A DNA stretch of 34,821 bases, taken from a virus. The position numbers were made by a program, and so were the translations under genes. A model generated the notes under the pieces. It worked only from the letters and a program-made list of their open reading frames with translations, had not been told where the DNA came from and ran no database searches. The stretch's first letter is position 1; each line of letters begins with the position of its first letter. Shown in pieces: positions 3,080 through 8,420 of this stretch. Location: the IMG/VR virus record IMGVR_UViG_3300030044_000055, positions 1 through 34,821 of that record; one strand, written 5' to 3'.

Positions 3080-3403
3080 TCATTCTTCCTTAATTTTCTC
3101 AAGGGCTTTATCTACTTCCAGACGAGCATCAATTCCGCTACCATCAAGAAGGCCGTAGCTTGGCAGTCCACTATATATTTTCTCTAATACTTCAAGTGCC
3201 AAATAAAGCCTATACTTATGCATATCCCACAGTTTAAAGACTTCGTTACGGTCTGAGTGTAGGATACGGTTAATTCTCTTCTCTTCCTCAAGTTCCGTTT
3301 TTAGGTCCTCTATGTTCTTAGATAATTCGTTCCATTCGCATTGTTGGCAATTAGAGCCAAACTCAACAGAATGACCACAATCTCCCATACTATAAAGGCT
3401 CAT
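3080..3403 (-). CDS. Hypothetical protein, N-terminal Cys/His motif plus coiled coil (107 aa)
   Basis: No named family. Residues about 9-22 contain CGHSVEFGSNCQQC, a probable zinc site (C, H, C, C). Residues about 30-52 form a coiled coil (NIEDLKTELEEEKRINRIL), followed by a helical C-terminal region. The ATG overlaps the upstream stop codon as ATGA, so translation is coupled to the zinc-ribbon gene at 3400-3585. Its stop codon is two bases from the end of the convergent endolysin gene, with no terminator between them. Confidence 0.6.
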   Translation of the reverse strand: MSLYSMGDCGHSVEFGSNCQQCEWNELSKNIEDLKTELEEEKRINRILHSDRNEVFKLWDMHKYRLYLALEVLEKIYSGLPSYGLLDGSGIDARLEVDKALEKIKEE

Positions 3404-3585
3404 TCGTCTTCCCTCGCATCTCGACCAAAATCTTCAACTTTAGCTCTAGGGGCACCACAGTTTACGCAGGTGTCCGTCTTGTCTGAAAACTCATTTCCCT
3501 TACAGTAAGGGCAGCAACTGTAGGCGTTTAGCCAGGCAGTCATTTGCGACATGTTTAGGATTGTTCTTTCAGGCTTTTTATTCAA
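3400..3585 (-). CDS. Small zinc-ribbon protein (61 aa), TTG start
   Basis: Two CxxC pairs, CPYC and CVNC, separated by about 13 residues (CPYCKGNEFSDKTDTCVNC) form a classical zinc ribbon, so nucleic-acid or protein binding is likely; the partner is unknown. The TTG start at 3585 is preferred because GGGAG lies 6 nt upstream, whereas the internal ATG at 3552 has only a poor site. The start lies directly after the macrodomain gene stop codon, and the 3' end overlaps the next gene by four bases. Confidence 0.6.
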   Translation of the reverse strand: MNKKPERTILNMSQMTAWLNAYSCCPYCKGNEFSDKTDTCVNCGAPRAKVEDFGRDAREDE

Positions 3586-4029
3586 CTAGAACTCCCACAC
3601 GGTAAATTCTTGTTCTGGATATGACTCCAGAACCTCAAGTGTCAAATTCCAGTCCACGCCAAATAAGCCACTGTTGATTTTGCACATATGGATTGGCTTA
3701 TTATCCGTATTTTGCCAGATCAAATCTCCAATAGCGTCGGCTGTGGCATCCAAGATTTCTGGGACTGAATCTACCTTACTACCAAAGTTAGTCGAGGTAA
3801 AAAGACATCCAATAGTATGATCTCCGGTATCCAAAAGAAGGCATGACCCAAGAATGTCCCCACCTTCGTTACAAATTCTATTGTAGAACTTGTATGCGTA
3901 TGGGTATTTTTGGGCAAATTGTTTGGCAATACCTGAACCCCAGACTCCTTGGCAGTTACAGGCATGACAGATAATGGAACCCTTAGGGGCATCAAAAAGG
4001 GAACCCTTGACGATAGTTACGTTGCTCAT
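3586..4029 (-). CDS. Macrodomain protein, ADP-ribose binding or hydrolysing
   Basis: A single compact macrodomain of 147 aa. The ADP-ribose-binding signature HACNCQGVWGSGIAKQF (22-38) resembles Poa1p/TARG1-type macrodomains, and a second loop INSGLFGVDW (118-127) matches the phosphate-binding region. Family members hydrolyse ADP-ribose 1''-phosphate, O-acetyl-ADP-ribose, or ADP-ribose attached to protein or nucleic acid; which one applies here is not decided by sequence. Start and stop codons overlap those of neighbours (TAATG with the upstream gene). It is the last gene of the five-gene NAD/ADP-ribose set, which supports a role in removing or recycling ADP-ribose. Confidence 0.88.
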   Translation of the reverse strand: MSNVTIVKGSLFDAPKGSIICHACNCQGVWGSGIAKQFAQKYPYAYKFYNRICNEGGDILGSCLLLDTGDHTIGCLFTSTNFGSKVDSVPEILDATADAIGDLIWQNTDNKPIHMCKINSGLFGVDWNLTLEVLESYPEQEFTVWEF

Positions 4030-4502
4030 TACTCTAGTTCTCCTATAAGATTTTCAATTAGCTCTTCAATACTGTCAACTTGAGGCACTCCATATTTTTC
4101 GCAAACTATGTCAACGTTACCTTTACGCCAAAAGCCTTCTGGACAGCATACAATTAATTTTCCAGTTTCAGCAAATAGGCCGAGTTCCAGCAGCGAAATA
4201 GGGGACTTAGTACTAGGATCAAAATACATCAGGATCCAATCGGCATACTCTAGCGCGTCAAGTTCCCATTCCACCTGTTGCTTGAATTGAGCATTCTCTA
4301 TTTTTTGCTCCCACGAAGAATCCCAATCGTCCCTTCGGGGATTCAAAATGAGGACGTTCTCTTCGGATAGTTCGTTAGTTACACGAGTCTGCCAATCAAC
4401 GGCTTTACCCATTTCAATGCTTCCGGCTAGAAATACAGATGGAGTTCGATAGGCCTTAAAGACTTTTTTAGGGAATGCCTGTGGAGACTTAATGACCTTC
4501 AT
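4029..4502 (-). CDS. Nucleoside 2-deoxyribosyltransferase-like protein
   Basis: A Rossmann-like protein of 157 aa related to the nucleoside 2-deoxyribosyltransferase-like family (Pfam Nuc_deoxyri_tr2 type). Visible motifs are FLAGSIEMG (24-32), NPRRDDWD (54-61), the helix QVEWELDALEYADWILMYF (76-94) and SPISLLELGLFA (100-111), whose glutamate E106 is the candidate nucleophile. Relatives transfer or hydrolyse N-glycosidic bonds of (deoxy)nucleosides. Placed between NADAR and macrodomain genes, an N-ribosyl or ADP-ribosyl hydrolase role is plausible, but this is inference. The start is three bases from the NADAR stop; GGAG lies 12 nt upstream, so coupling probably helps. Confidence 0.8.
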   Translation of the reverse strand: MKVIKSPQAFPKKVFKAYRTPSVFLAGSIEMGKAVDWQTRVTNELSEENVLILNPRRDDWDSSWEQKIENAQFKQQVEWELDALEYADWILMYFDPSTKSPISLLELGLFAETGKLIVCCPEGFWRKGNVDIVCEKYGVPQVDSIEELIENLIGELE

Positions 4503-4503
4503 G

Positions 4504-4986
4504 TTAGCTTTTAGCTCCAGATCTCAAGTCTTCCCTGACTTTCATCAAAACTTCACCAAGCCAATTTTTGCCACGCCACTTTGATTTATCGAATCGGTCA
4601 GGATCTCTTTCAGACAGCCCGATACCCCAAATACGGTCTACAGGGCTGGCTTCAACAATTTCCTCATTATGGGTAGAAAGAATAAATTCCTTCAAATAAG
4701 GAGTTGCGAACTTAGCCATATTGGCCTTATAAACGAACCCTCTAGACACAGCATCCCAAGACTCTGCGTCAAAGTTCTTAACCATCCTACCGGTTGCTTT
4801 TTGGGTAGAAGGGTCATGAGCTTTCATGATCTTGGCTAAGGCGTCCGTATCATTGAAATAAGTGGCCTTCATAGCCATCATATACTGTTCTGCACAGTTA
4901 TACTTTACTCCATCGATCTCAAATACGCTCCTATACCATTGGCTAAAGGGTCCACCGTAGAAAAAATGAAACTTTTCATCACCCAT
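4504..4986 (-). CDS. NADAR-domain protein (YbiA/RibX superfamily)
   Basis: A 160-aa single-domain NADAR protein. The family hallmarks are present: FYGGPFSQWY (9-18), YNCAEQYMMAMKA (29-41), ASPVDRIWGIG (113-123) and GKNWLGEVLM (139-148). Characterised members cleave N-glycosidic bonds, including removal of ADP-ribose from guanine in DarT-type toxin systems, and riboflavin intermediates in YbiA. The ATG at 4986 is preceded by AAGGAG with 7 nt spacing and overlaps the Nampt-like stop codon by 8 bp. A longer in-frame start at 5049 lies deep inside that gene. Next to a NAD+-rebuilding pair it may release ADP-ribose from modified nucleic acid; this is inferred. Confidence 0.9.
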   Translation of the reverse strand: MGDEKFHFFYGGPFSQWYRSVFEIDGVKYNCAEQYMMAMKATYFNDTDALAKIMKAHDPSTQKATGRMVKNFDAESWDAVSRGFVYKANMAKFATPYLKEFILSTHNEEIVEASPVDRIWGIGLSERDPDRFDKSKWRGKNWLGEVLMKVREDLRSGAKS

Positions 4987-6451
4987 TTGCGTTCTCCTTA
5001 AGTTTTGCCCTGACTTGAGCGAAACTTTCTTCTCGGACCAGCTTACCATCTTTGAAGATGGGTTGCAAGAGATCCGTTGAAAGCTCCGAATTTAGGTCGT
5101 GGCCATCGCTAAAGGTAATCTTTCCGCCACTTTTGTAGACATGAACCTTACCTTTTTGAGATTTTTTGATTCCATCATCAGTCTTTGGGTCTTTGAAGAT
5201 CTGCTTTTCAACGCCATTTATGACACATAAAGTGCTCTTGAGAGCAAATCCGAAGGTATCACGAGTATTGTACTGATAGGTATACGACCCAATCCCAAAA
5301 ACCACGTTAATGGAAGCGAATCCTTTTTCAGCCAACTTAGTTACAATATCTTTAGCCCTAAAAAGGGTGATGGCGTCTCCATAGATCAGGCCAATGTGAG
5401 AATCGAGGACTTTATATCCTTTTCCGGTTTCAGTGCCTCCGAAGATATCCCAAAGGGCTTCGACTGCGCCCTTATACTCCAAACTACCCTTAGGTGCATC
5501 TGGATCACCACAAACGATCTTAACTGGGTCACCGGAATCAGGTCGAATGACAACACGGCCATCACGAGCCATGATTTTGTCTTTAAGGGCTGGAATAACC
5601 CTACCGATAACATCCCAGAAATCATACCCATCGGAAACAATGGACACGAAGCCCGAAGGATGTACTACGGACATCATTTGAGTCAGGTATTCCAAGTCAT
5701 TACCGTAGCTACATTGGATAGAGTGCTCGGTGGCTGGAATCGATGTCCCAACCAACTCTTTTTCAACATTGGCTCCATAGTAGTATTCTGCGGCCTGAAT
5801 GGCGGGAATCGTGTCCGTACCAACGAAGGAGAGGAGGTGCCCCATCCCACTCGACATTGCAGACTGAAGGGAAGACATACCGCGAAAGCTAAAATCATGC
5901 CCTTGGAAGGGAACGAAATCAGTATTTCCAACCGTTTTCAGAGAAGCTTCATCCAAGATCTTCCGATATTCTCCAGCAATAGTTGCTGAAGTCGAAGGCT
6001 GCCAAAGCTGGCAGGAAGCCAAGCTCTCAACAAAATTGGTAAGCCAAAAGAAGCGCTTATCGGTGTTTTGAATGGTCATCATTGGAACCCGCAAAGGTAC
6101 CAAAGTCCCTTCTGGGACAGATTTAATCAAAAGAGGAAGGTACCCAAGATCATGCAGCTCTTCGATATGCTTTGTCTCTGGATTAGCAACCCCTAGAGTA
6201 TTCTTGATAATTCTGGAATATTCTTTAACTACGTCGGCCTTAGCTTGGTGGAAAAAATTCAGATTGAAGAAATCGATCAAAAATTCCTTGATGAAAGCTT
6301 GCTGACCAAAGGCTACCACTTCGTCAACGCCTTTCATACGGCTAGCACGAGGGGTCCAAGTTGAAAACACCACTTCGGTACCAACCGGGTACATATTTTT
6401 ATGACTAACCTTATAGAAATCGGCCAACAACATTGCGTTCAGATTTTTCAT
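4979..6451 (-). CDS. Nampt-like NAD+ synthesis enzyme, candidate NARP1 Namat
   Basis: Nicotinamide phosphoribosyltransferase-like enzyme of 490 aa, close to the length of characterised Nampt. Active-site segments are conserved: HDFSFRGMSS (R190), SFVGTDT (D213), TEHS (H243) and VIRPDSGDP (R303, D305). The N-terminus ADFYKVSHKNMYP is also typical. Alone it would be called Nampt. Because it follows a PRPP-synthetase-like gene and no NMN adenylyltransferase is present, the better candidate is Namat of the phage NARP1 pathway, which joins nicotinamide to ADP-ribose pyrophosphate to give NAD+ directly. The start at 6451 has an AGGA-like site and clears the upstream gene by 10 bp; an earlier in-frame start at 6490 overlaps it. 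Confidence 0.9.
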   Translation of the reverse strand: MKNLNAMLLADFYKVSHKNMYPVGTEVVFSTWTPRASRMKGVDEVVAFGQQAFIKEFLIDFFNLNFFHQAKADVVKEYSRIIKNTLGVANPETKHIEELHDLGYLPLLIKSVPEGTLVPLRVPMMTIQNTDKRFFWLTNFVESLASCQLWQPSTSATIAGEYRKILDEASLKTVGNTDFVPFQGHDFSFRGMSSLQSAMSSGMGHLLSFVGTDTIPAIQAAEYYYGANVEKELVGTSIPATEHSIQCSYGNDLEYLTQMMSVVHPSGFVSIVSDGYDFWDVIGRVIPALKDKIMARDGRVVIRPDSGDPVKIVCGDPDAPKGSLEYKGAVEALWDIFGGTETGKGYKVLDSHIGLIYGDAITLFRAKDIVTKLAEKGFASINVVFGIGSYTYQYNTRDTFGFALKSTLCVINGVEKQIFKDPKTDDGIKKSQKGKVHVYKSGGKITFSDGHDLNSELSTDLLQPIFKDGKLVREESFAQVRAKLKENANG

Positions 6452-6461
6452 ATATAATATC

Positions 6462-7229
6462 CTATATTTGAATTGTGCCTTGACGTTCACTTACTTCACC
6501 AGCGTGAGTGAAAATCCGTTGGATACCCGATTCGAAGAGAGTTCTAGTTCCCTTCGAAAAGATCCCATGAGTCACGAAGAGCACCACGCTCTTTGCACCC
6601 GCAGCCAGTAGGTCTTTGGCCAAAAGTTTAAATGTCATACCGCCATCACAAATATCGTCCACTATGAGAACAGTTCCGATAGGCGTTCCAATCAGTTTAT
6701 AGCTTGTAATGTTGCCGGTGAGCTGATCTCGAACCTTCTCACCATAGATATGGCCACCCTTAAGCAGATTGATATATTTCTCGAAAGCGCCAGCATCTGG
6801 ATAACAGAAAAGGTTTGCTTCTACAAGCTTTGCGACCTCATAGATCTTATCTACAGGGTAAATAGCTTTAAAATTATAGATAAGCTCCTCGGCCACAGAA
6901 CTATGTGGGTCCATGCAGATAACTTCCTCGAACCCAAGATGGTTGAGAAGTTCAGCGAAGGCATAAAGAGCAAATGTAGCGGTATTGCTAGGCTCCTTAT
7001 CTTGGCGACCATAAGGAAGATAGGGAAGTCTGAGTACTGTCCTAAAATCGTAATGATCTAGGAGCAACTTAAGTTGAGCAAGTTGAAGGAATTCACCTTC
7101 ATTGCTAAACTCCCAAGTTACATGAGCAAAATTGGTTGTAGTGAGGATTTCTTCGGGGAGCTTCCAGACCTGAGAGGTATTGTCTGAAAACATAGTGGTG
7201 GGAACGGGAAGACCGTTTAAGTATAGCAT
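6462..7229 (-). CDS. PRPP-synthetase-like kinase, candidate NARP1 Adps
   Basis: A short (255 aa, versus about 315 for bacterial Prs) ribose-phosphate pyrophosphokinase homologue. Motifs: YLPYGRQDKE (70-79), MDPHS (106-110), PDAGAFEKY (144-152), flexible-loop region EKVRDQLTGN (164-173) and the PRPP-binding loop VLIVDDICDGGMTF (187-200). In phages with NARP1, this type of protein (Adps) pyrophosphorylates ADP-ribose instead of ribose 5-phosphate, supplying the substrate for Namat. The adjacency to the Nampt-like gene supports that reading, but a genuine PRPP synthetase feeding Nampt is the alternative. Ribosome-binding site AAGGAG lies 6-8 nt before the ATG. An extended -10 promoter lies 75 nt upstream. 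Confidence 0.9.
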   Translation of the reverse strand: MLYLNGLPVPTTMFSDNTSQVWKLPEEILTTTNFAHVTWEFSNEGEFLQLAQLKLLLDHYDFRTVLRLPYLPYGRQDKEPSNTATFALYAFAELLNHLGFEEVICMDPHSSVAEELIYNFKAIYPVDKIYEVAKLVEANLFCYPDAGAFEKYINLLKGGHIYGEKVRDQLTGNITSYKLIGTPIGTVLIVDDICDGGMTFKLLAKDLLAAGAKSVVLFVTHGIFSKGTRTLFESGIQRIFTHAGEVSERQGTIQI

Positions 7230-7304
7230 GGGGGCTCCTTATCTAGGTCTAAGCCGTATCCACGTCAATCAAGGATACTAACTCAAACCTGCCTTACAAC
7301 TAAG

Positions 7305-7331
7305 ATTATATCATGTCGAATAGAATAGCAA
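7305..7331 (-). promoter_or_regulatory. Extended -10 promoter upstream of the NAD+ gene set
   Basis: On the minus strand TGATATAAT (extended -10, TGnTATAAT) occupies about 7313-7305, with a weak TTGCTA 15 nt further upstream. It lies 75 nt before the PRPP-synthetase-like start and could drive the NAD/ADP-ribose genes separately from the 72-aa gene upstream. The same bases also read TAATCTTA, a partial match to the late element. Confidence 0.45.
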
Positions 7332-7727: not shown

Positions 7728-8420
7728 CTAAATATACTTAAAAATTAGTCCGTGCGTGTGAGGTCTTTCGCCGCTACAAACTCTAGCAATTGCCTGAAAA
7801 TTTATTCCCAATACTTTAGCGGCTTCCATAAGAAATGGATAAACTGTTCCAGTTGTAACGCAAAGTACTTTCTTACGTCTAGGAGAGGGTCTTCCCGTAC
7901 TATACTCTCTTAATGCCTGCCTTTGTTTTTCCGTAACGGATTTGCCGCCAAAATTAGGATTGTTCGACCCAGATCTAGACTCAGACATTTTATTTCGAGT
8001 TTTCTTCGAGCACTTTTTACCAAAATTAGCCTTGGCTATTTTATCTCTGGTTTCTTGAGAGGGTGCTTTCCCCGGCCTTCCCTTGTGTATCTTAGACAGC
8101 TTGTCTTTGGTTGATTGATGGGTCCTTCTATTTTTACCACCGCTGTCCAAATTATACCCATTGGGAGATAACGTGTTGAATATCTTGATGTAGTATTCTT
8201 CTCTGTGATTCATTTCTTCAATAGAGGCGCATCTAGCCAATACTTTGATTTCAAAGTTCTCCCTGCCATACTTTTGGATGGCTCTCACAATAGGCATATT
8301 TCTGTGTTTAGAGTTGGGAGTCAGATTGCAATGTTGGCACCATCGCTTCTCCAACCTTTGGACTGTTTGTCCGATATATCGATTTCCGCTTATTTTATTG
8401 GTTATCATGTAAATCAACAT
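7728..8420 (-). CDS. GIY-YIG homing endonuclease with NUMOD3 repeats
   Basis: Free-standing homing endonuclease of 230 aa. The N-terminal GIY-YIG nuclease domain (IYMITN, then GNRYIGQT, with the following QRLEKRW arginine and the glutamate in MNHREEYYI) spans about 1-95. Basic NUMOD3-type DNA-binding repeats follow (KDKLSKIHKGR, RDKIAKANFGK, NNPNFGGKS), and the C-terminus (VLCVTTGTVYPFLMEAAKVL) resembles a NUMOD1/HTH module. It makes site-specific double-strand breaks to spread its own gene. It separates the protease gene from the left-arm operon and has its own TTGACA-17-TATGAT promoter. No Shine-Dalgarno sequence precedes the ATG; the predicted message is almost leaderless. Confidence 0.9.
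   Translation of the reverse strand: MLIYMITNKISGNRYIGQTVQRLEKRWCQHCNLTPNSKHRNMPIVRAIQKYGRENFEIKVLARCASIEEMNHREEYYIKIFNTLSPNGYNLDSGGKNRRTHQSTKDKLSKIHKGRPGKAPSQETRDKIAKANFGKKCSKKTRNKMSESRSGSNNPNFGGKSVTEKQRQALREYSTGRPSPRRKKVLCVTTGTVYPFLMEAAKVLGINFQAIARVCSGERPHTHGLIFKYI

Follow-up and report, generated by a model that had tools for sequence, protein, structure and literature searches.

Why would a phage carry, packed against a pathway that rebuilds NAD+, three further genes whose products are predicted to act on ADP-ribose derivatives? The question is raised by a stretch of viral DNA of 34,821 nucleotides (IMG/VR record IMGVR_UViG_3300030044_000055), which at its full length is called the window here. 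It is a 34.8-kb fragment of a tailed phage with head and tail genes. Five genes of its minus strand run head to tail from 7229 to 3586, packed like one operon. The NARP1 pathway of phages, reported by Osterman in 2024, is said to consist of the enzymes Adps and Namat and to restore the NAD+ that bacterial defences have destroyed. The operon is read here as a NARP1-type NAD+-reconstitution operon extended by a module that would unblock ADP-ribose derivatives and feed Adps and Namat; this reading is given about an even chance of being right.

The five genes in transcription order are as follows:
6462..7229, minus strand: Adps-like gene (ADP-ribose pyrophosphate synthetase), 255 aa, assigned by phrog_619 and a tree
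4979..6451, minus strand: Namat gene (nicotinamide ADP-ribose transferase), 490 aa, assigned by identity to SPbetaL1 Namat, clamp motif and contacts
4504..4986, minus strand: NADAR gene of the YbiA subfamily, 160 aa from the ATG at 4986, assigned by PF08719, TIGR02464 and residues
4029..4502, minus strand: PF15891 nucleoside-2-deoxyribosyltransferase-like (NDT-like) gene, 157 aa, predicted N-glycosidase, assigned by PF15891, the AlphaFold model and E106
3586..4029, minus strand: Poa1p-like macrodomain (macro) gene, 147 aa, predicted ADP-ribose-1''-phosphate phosphatase, assigned by the Poa1p match and the Macro profile

As read from the DNA, a gap of 10 bp separates Adps from Namat, which starts at ATG 6451; the end of Namat shares 8 bp (ATGGGTGA) with the start of NADAR; and NADAR is 1 bp from the NDT-like gene, which overlaps the macro gene by 1 bp (TAATG). 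The best start of NADAR is ATG 4986; a longer open reading frame (ORF) start at 5049 falls within Namat. Reading frames, spacing and family matches confirm the original prediction of five adjacent genes in this order and place. The identical cluster is present on the 166,169-base IMG/VR contig L004 and on contig L005 from a second metagenome, with both query proteins 100% identical. The five genes are taken to be real because homologues at 50-75% identity exist in other loci.

The Adps and Namat pair

The tree, the clamp motif and the contact residues assign the lead pair by sequence to the Adps and Namat of NARP1, as had been predicted, and not to Prs and Nampt. The Adps-like protein matches phrog_619, 'ribose-phosphate pyrophosphokinase', at 3.8e-59. 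Against the Prs model TIGR01251 it reaches 81.4 bits, under the cut-off of 113, and the Adps of SPbetaL1, with 106 bits, also stays under it. A tree built from 61 sequences separates every Adps from the Prs entries at 100/99 and places the window protein with SPbetaL1 Adps in a set supported at 99/97. The phylogeny proposed earlier for the lead proteins, with clustering beside Prs and Nampt as the opposing outcome, thus gave the Adps side of the 100/99 split.

The second protein shares 61.8% identity with the characterised SPbetaL1 Namat, matches the NAPRTase profile (7.5e-42) as well as NAMPT_N, and has 9w5x and 9w5w as its best PDB matches. Namat is defined by an adenine-clamp motif, GSX-Phi-X-Phi-X-Phi-TRD, and the structure of the SPbetaL1 Namat-NAD+ complex has been solved (PMC12774641). 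In the window the motif reads GSYTYQYNTRD, and 19 of the 20 NAD+-contact residues are identical, F392 being replaced by Y. The true Nampts of the survey carry GG-x-LLQ at the clamp site (L127, L136, L253), which the window protein lacks. The NCBIfam model PRK09198 cannot separate Namat from Nampt, and SPbetaL1 Namat passes it too. A true Prs and Nampt identity is rejected on the tree, the Prs model score and the clamp site.

The window shares with SPbetaL1 NARP1 the two enzymes and their order, and its Namat retains the clamp motif and the NAD+ contacts. It differs in that its Adps is only 36% identical and that no NADAR, PF15891 or macro gene was found beside the SPbetaL1 pair. Namat homologues are also found in metagenome-assembled genomes, mostly labelled Acidimicrobiaceae (L169-L174, L177, L217), where the clamp motif ends in NRD in place of TRD and the flanking sequence that was fetched showed no Adps.

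The three additional enzymes

Known relatives of all three extra enzymes can unblock the 1'' position of ADP-ribose or cut similar bonds, or are predicted to do so, and the catalytic residues are kept in NADAR and the PF15891 protein and in part in the macrodomain.

The NADAR protein matches PF08719 at 1.1e-48 and TIGR02464 with 157 bits (cut-off 73.7). It keeps the residues matching E43, K50, E125 and W133 of the P. nicotianae NADAR, among which E54, K61 and E133 of the window protein (181-aa reading) correspond to the Glu/Lys pair and the subfamily Glu. The protein thus retains those residues that, in the P. nicotianae structure, touch the distal ribose and phosphates. Judged by its residues, this NADAR belongs to the YbiA type and to neither the DarT1-linked type (Asp) nor the T4-like phage type (His). 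A DarTG or DarT1-NADAR toxin-antitoxin system was rejected, as no DarT-like ADP-ribosyltransferase was matched by any gene scanned around the operon and the DarG model reached only 35.8 of 250 bits; in addition, Glu stands where the BC4488 type has Asp.

The fourth protein matches PF15891 (Nuc_deoxyri_tr2) at 4.2e-40 and 136.8 bits, with a cut-off of 30. Its AlphaFold model has a pLDDT of 92.7, and the nearest folds are 4mcj, then YtoQ, MilB and DNPH1. The residue E106, invariant in 58 relatives, occupies the position of the expected catalytic Glu of the NDT superfamily, and the protein is a predicted N-glycosidase. The NDT fold and the catalytic Glu region are common to MilB, DNPH1 and PDB 4mcj. 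However, MilB (a CMP N-glycosidase) and DNPH1 are 14-20% identical to it and act on nucleotides, and 4mcj is a structure without known function. The search found no PF15891 member with a known substrate and no literature naming Nuc_deoxyri_tr2. Further occurrences of the family include the Tunturiibacter phage Tunturi_5 (L257 3989-7777), where the PF15891 match lies inside a very long ORF annotated as MutT/NUDIX that adjoins the portal gene, and a Klosneuvirus Nudix protein also resembles the PF15891 fold.

The best PDB match of the last protein is yeast Poa1p (3.5e-25), and its Macro profile match is 1.5e-9. Yeast Poa1p is an ADP-ribose-1''-phosphate phosphatase. Its residues H23, N26 and F152 are kept in the window as H22, N25 and F123; S30 is replaced by V29, and the phage homologues of the same type that were found have V or M there. 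Across loci, two different macrodomain subfamilies adjoin Namat. The Poa1p type was seen in ~10 distinct loci, all with clamp-type Namat and none with Nampt; this tie is suggestive only, because the loci were gathered by similarity to the window Namat. In the Pseudomonas phage Adele a macro gene lies downstream of NARP1, and the authors proposed the release of ADP-ribose (PMC12846349). Like the window, Adele combines the NARP1 pair with a Poa1p-like macrodomain. It differs in that the paper names no NADAR or nucleoside deoxyribosyltransferase, and the position of Poa1p S30 is Thr in Adele and Val in the window (PMC12846349).

Linkage to NAD+ rebuilding

A survey of related loci for co-occurrence gave a divided answer. 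The extra genes recur singly or in twos, and one or two of them adjoin Adps-Namat in many unrelated loci, above chance for macro and PF15891. All five were seen together only in the window phage and in one distant phage (L113/L251), where they are rearranged over 9 kb. The gene orders vary and include Adps-Namat-NADAR-Macro (L010), Adps-NDT-Macro-Namat (L112), Adps-Macro-Namat (L018), Adps-NDT-Namat (several loci) and Adps-Namat-NDT-NADAR (L175). NADAR adjoins Adps-Namat both in other phages and in bacteria.

The proximity of macro and NADAR was counted on 50 whole contigs with a Namat-like gene, with random placement as the expectation. Outside the window genome, Namat is no more than 1 kb away for 5 of 13 macro matches (0.21 expected) and for 2 of 12 NADAR matches (also 0.21 expected; P 0.017); such linkage figures are guides and not exact probabilities, because phages are not independent samples. 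In the loci fetched with PF15891 alone, a Namat or Nampt lies within 1 kb in 13 of 42 contigs, where at most 2.0 are expected. Anywhere on the contig, it is present in 31 of the 42, and in 19 of the 23 that are at least 80 kb long; in a published survey NadV occurs in 22-33% of medium and jumbo phages (PMC9503650). The cultured phages with PF15891 that were checked all hold a NAPRTase gene as well (5/5).

The same families occur beside the other route to NAD+. The order NadM-Macro-NDT-Nampt is found in L136/L254, and L253 (G055:C1:52000-64000) holds NMNAT/Nudix, SLOG (YspA), Nampt, NADAR, an unknown gene and Macro, with a Sir2 gene further on; in the first of these proteins the NMNAT half was read from sequence, and only the Nudix half matched Pfam. 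NADAR has also been described beside phage NadV/NadM, where, as in the window, it adjoins NAD+ salvage genes, although the route there is the Nampt route based on phosphoribosyl pyrophosphate (PRPP) and not Adps-Namat (PMC9503650). The extra genes therefore belong to phage NAD+ rebuilding generally and are not feeders specific to NARP1, and part of their role may be the dismantling of ADP-ribose derivatives as such.

Proposed mechanism

By homology to tested enzymes, Adps would transfer pyrophosphate to ADP-ribose at its free 1'' hydroxyl; Namat would then join the product with nicotinamide to give NAD+. The known reaction suggests that Adps needs this hydroxyl to be free, and NAD+-using defences that leave a blocked 1'' position would then escape NARP1 alone. 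NADAR and the PF15891 protein may cut N-glycosidic bonds at C1'' of ADP-ribose, with base-linked ADP-ribose or histidine/imidazole-linked signals as possible substrates, and the Poa1p-like macrodomain may remove a 1''-phosphate or similar group. Each of these reactions would inactivate a defence product and at the same time yield ADP-ribose with a free 1'' hydroxyl. With the module, NARP1 would also be effective where a defence consumes NAD+ and leaves no free ADP-ribose.

A precedent is provided by RyDEP, the product of a third gene in the NARP1 operon of the mycobacteriophage DyoEdafos (a 2026 preprint), which frees ADP-ribose from 2'cADPR and 3'cADPR; the ADP-ribose that it makes from 2'cADPR is converted into NAD+ by the Adps and Namat of DyoEdafos in vitro (PMC13232231). 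In both phages NARP1 is joined by additional enzymatic capacity, there tested to free ADP-ribose for the pair. RyDEP, however, is a ryanodine-receptor-domain glycosidase (PMC13232231), whereas the window has three unrelated families with predicted activities. The unblocking module is favoured because of the expected need of Adps for a free 1'' hydroxyl, the chemistry of the families and the RyDEP precedent. The longer route of the original prediction, in which the extra enzymes free ADP-ribose for the NARP1 pair, is plausible in this light. More tentative is the wider proposal that phages hold interchangeable enzymes, each unblocking one kind of C1''-substituted ADP-ribose (N-linked for NADAR and PF15891, 1''-phosphate for the Poa1p-like macrodomain), which would make immune signals and toxic by-products usable by Adps and Namat as sources of NAD+.

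Alternative explanations

Several observations weigh against an unblocking module. The macrodomain has Val at the position of Poa1p S30, the proximity of NADAR to Namat in the phage survey is weakly above chance, and in close relatives of the window Namat PF15891 is often present but distant from it. Moreover, all three families are also found at the side of true Nampt and NadM, whose pathway does not take ADP-ribose as its direct substrate. The last point suits an explanation that dispenses with a shared flow of ADP-ribose: the extra enzymes would strip phage nucleic acids of ADP-ribosylation or break down signals derived from NAD, and would stand beside NARP1 only because both answer NAD-using immunity. 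This is possible, if somewhat unlikely. It is consistent with the company that these families keep with PRPP-using Nampt and NadM operons, with the reversal of guanine ADP-ribosylation by NADARs (PMC11543638, PMC11125620) and with the argument of Iyer et al. that phage Macro and NADAR target small ADP-ribose derivatives (PMC9503650). Yet ADP-ribose would be freed in every proposed reaction anyway, RyDEP has been coupled to the pair in vitro (PMC13232231), and the Poa1p-type macro was met only with clamp-type Namat, albeit under biased sampling. For PF15891 taken alone, another role is conceivable but rather unlikely, namely that it acts on nucleoside monophosphates like MilB and DNPH1, supplying ribose-5-phosphate and hence PRPP, or clears modified nucleotides, and is not an ADP-ribose enzyme. 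Those two proteins are its nearest characterised folds, and a true Prs-like gene lies nearby on some PF15891 contigs; NARP1, however, does not need PRPP, and in several loci PF15891 sits directly between Adps and Namat. Such a role would be compatible with the unblocking activities proposed for the other genes.

The ADP-ribose could also come from RNA repair, with KptA/Tpt1 using NAD+ to remove RNA 2'-phosphates and leaving ADP-ribose cyclic phosphate, from which macro and its partners would return ADP-ribose to Adps and Namat. The phosphatase activity of Poa1p on ADP-ribose-1''-phosphate fits this scheme, as do the bacterial loci L201 and L206 (Endozoicomonas and Pseudoalteromonas denitrificans), in which Adps-Namat-NADAR-KptA stands beside a divergent NrtR gene and Macro follows in one. 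Recycling of the by-product is a rival in these marine bacteria because KptA makes ADP-ribose cyclic phosphate from NAD+ (PMC9503650). The Macro of L206, however, is of a different subfamily from the phage gene, and KptA is absent from the 166-kb contig of the window phage and was found in only 1 of the 48 related phage contigs searched. Within the window phage this recycling is rejected, there being no KptA on its contig, and as an explanation of the operon RNA repair is improbable. Chromosomal Adps-Namat pairs of marine gammaproteobacteria (L184-L219) mostly adjoin an NrtR-like Nudix regulator, often divergent. Finally, the genes could be chance neighbours in a compact phage genome, as just one other locus has all five and spreads them over 9 kb. 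The overlapping starts and stops, the repeated pairings in varied orders and the enrichment over random placement make this very improbable.

Surroundings of the operon

Two features flank the five genes on the same strand:
7236..7313, minus strand: candidate leader with an extended -10 like TGATATAAT (7313-7305) and an AAGGAG ribosome site before Adps, read by eye
3400..3585, minus strand: small zinc-ribbon-like ORF directly after the macro stop, from its sequence a possible further operon gene

The promoter scan did not list the leader candidate at 7313-7305, and promoter-like sites in the window are no more numerous than in shuffles. Terminator-like sites number 7, compared with a shuffle mean of 4.6 (sd 2.5). 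The zinc-ribbon-like ORF and a second small ORF (3080-3403, minus strand) adjoin the macro gene downstream without gaps, and neither has a family match in the profile scans. Directly upstream of the operon lies a GIY-YIG homing-endonuclease-like gene (7728-8420, minus strand; phrog_314, 1.9e-42), which may have helped to move genes into this spot. Scans of the window for tRNA and Rfam families gave no matches, and a megablast of its first 25 kb against cultured phages gave none.

Significance

NARP1 itself, its combination with RyDEP (PMC13232231), the macro gene beside NARP1 (PMC12846349) and NADAR beside NadV/NadM (PMC9503650) are already known. In the freely accessible literature that was searched, no description was found of the five-gene operon or of PF15891 with NAD+ rebuilding. 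The earlier view that the combination was undescribed thus holds there for the full set, but the macro-NARP1 (PMC12846349) and NADAR-NadV/NadM (PMC9503650) pairings are in print. The new elements are the link of PF15891 to NAD+ rebuilding and this five-gene combination.

On its own, NARP1 can counter a defence only if free ADP-ribose is left behind. Were the extra enzymes to unblock further products of NAD+ breakdown, phages could convert several kinds of immune signal and toxin product back into NAD+. PF15891, which is widespread and has a solved structure but no known role, gains a testable function. Should the wider proposal of interchangeable unblocking enzymes be true, PF15891 would represent a new enzyme family that destroys NAD-derived immune signals.

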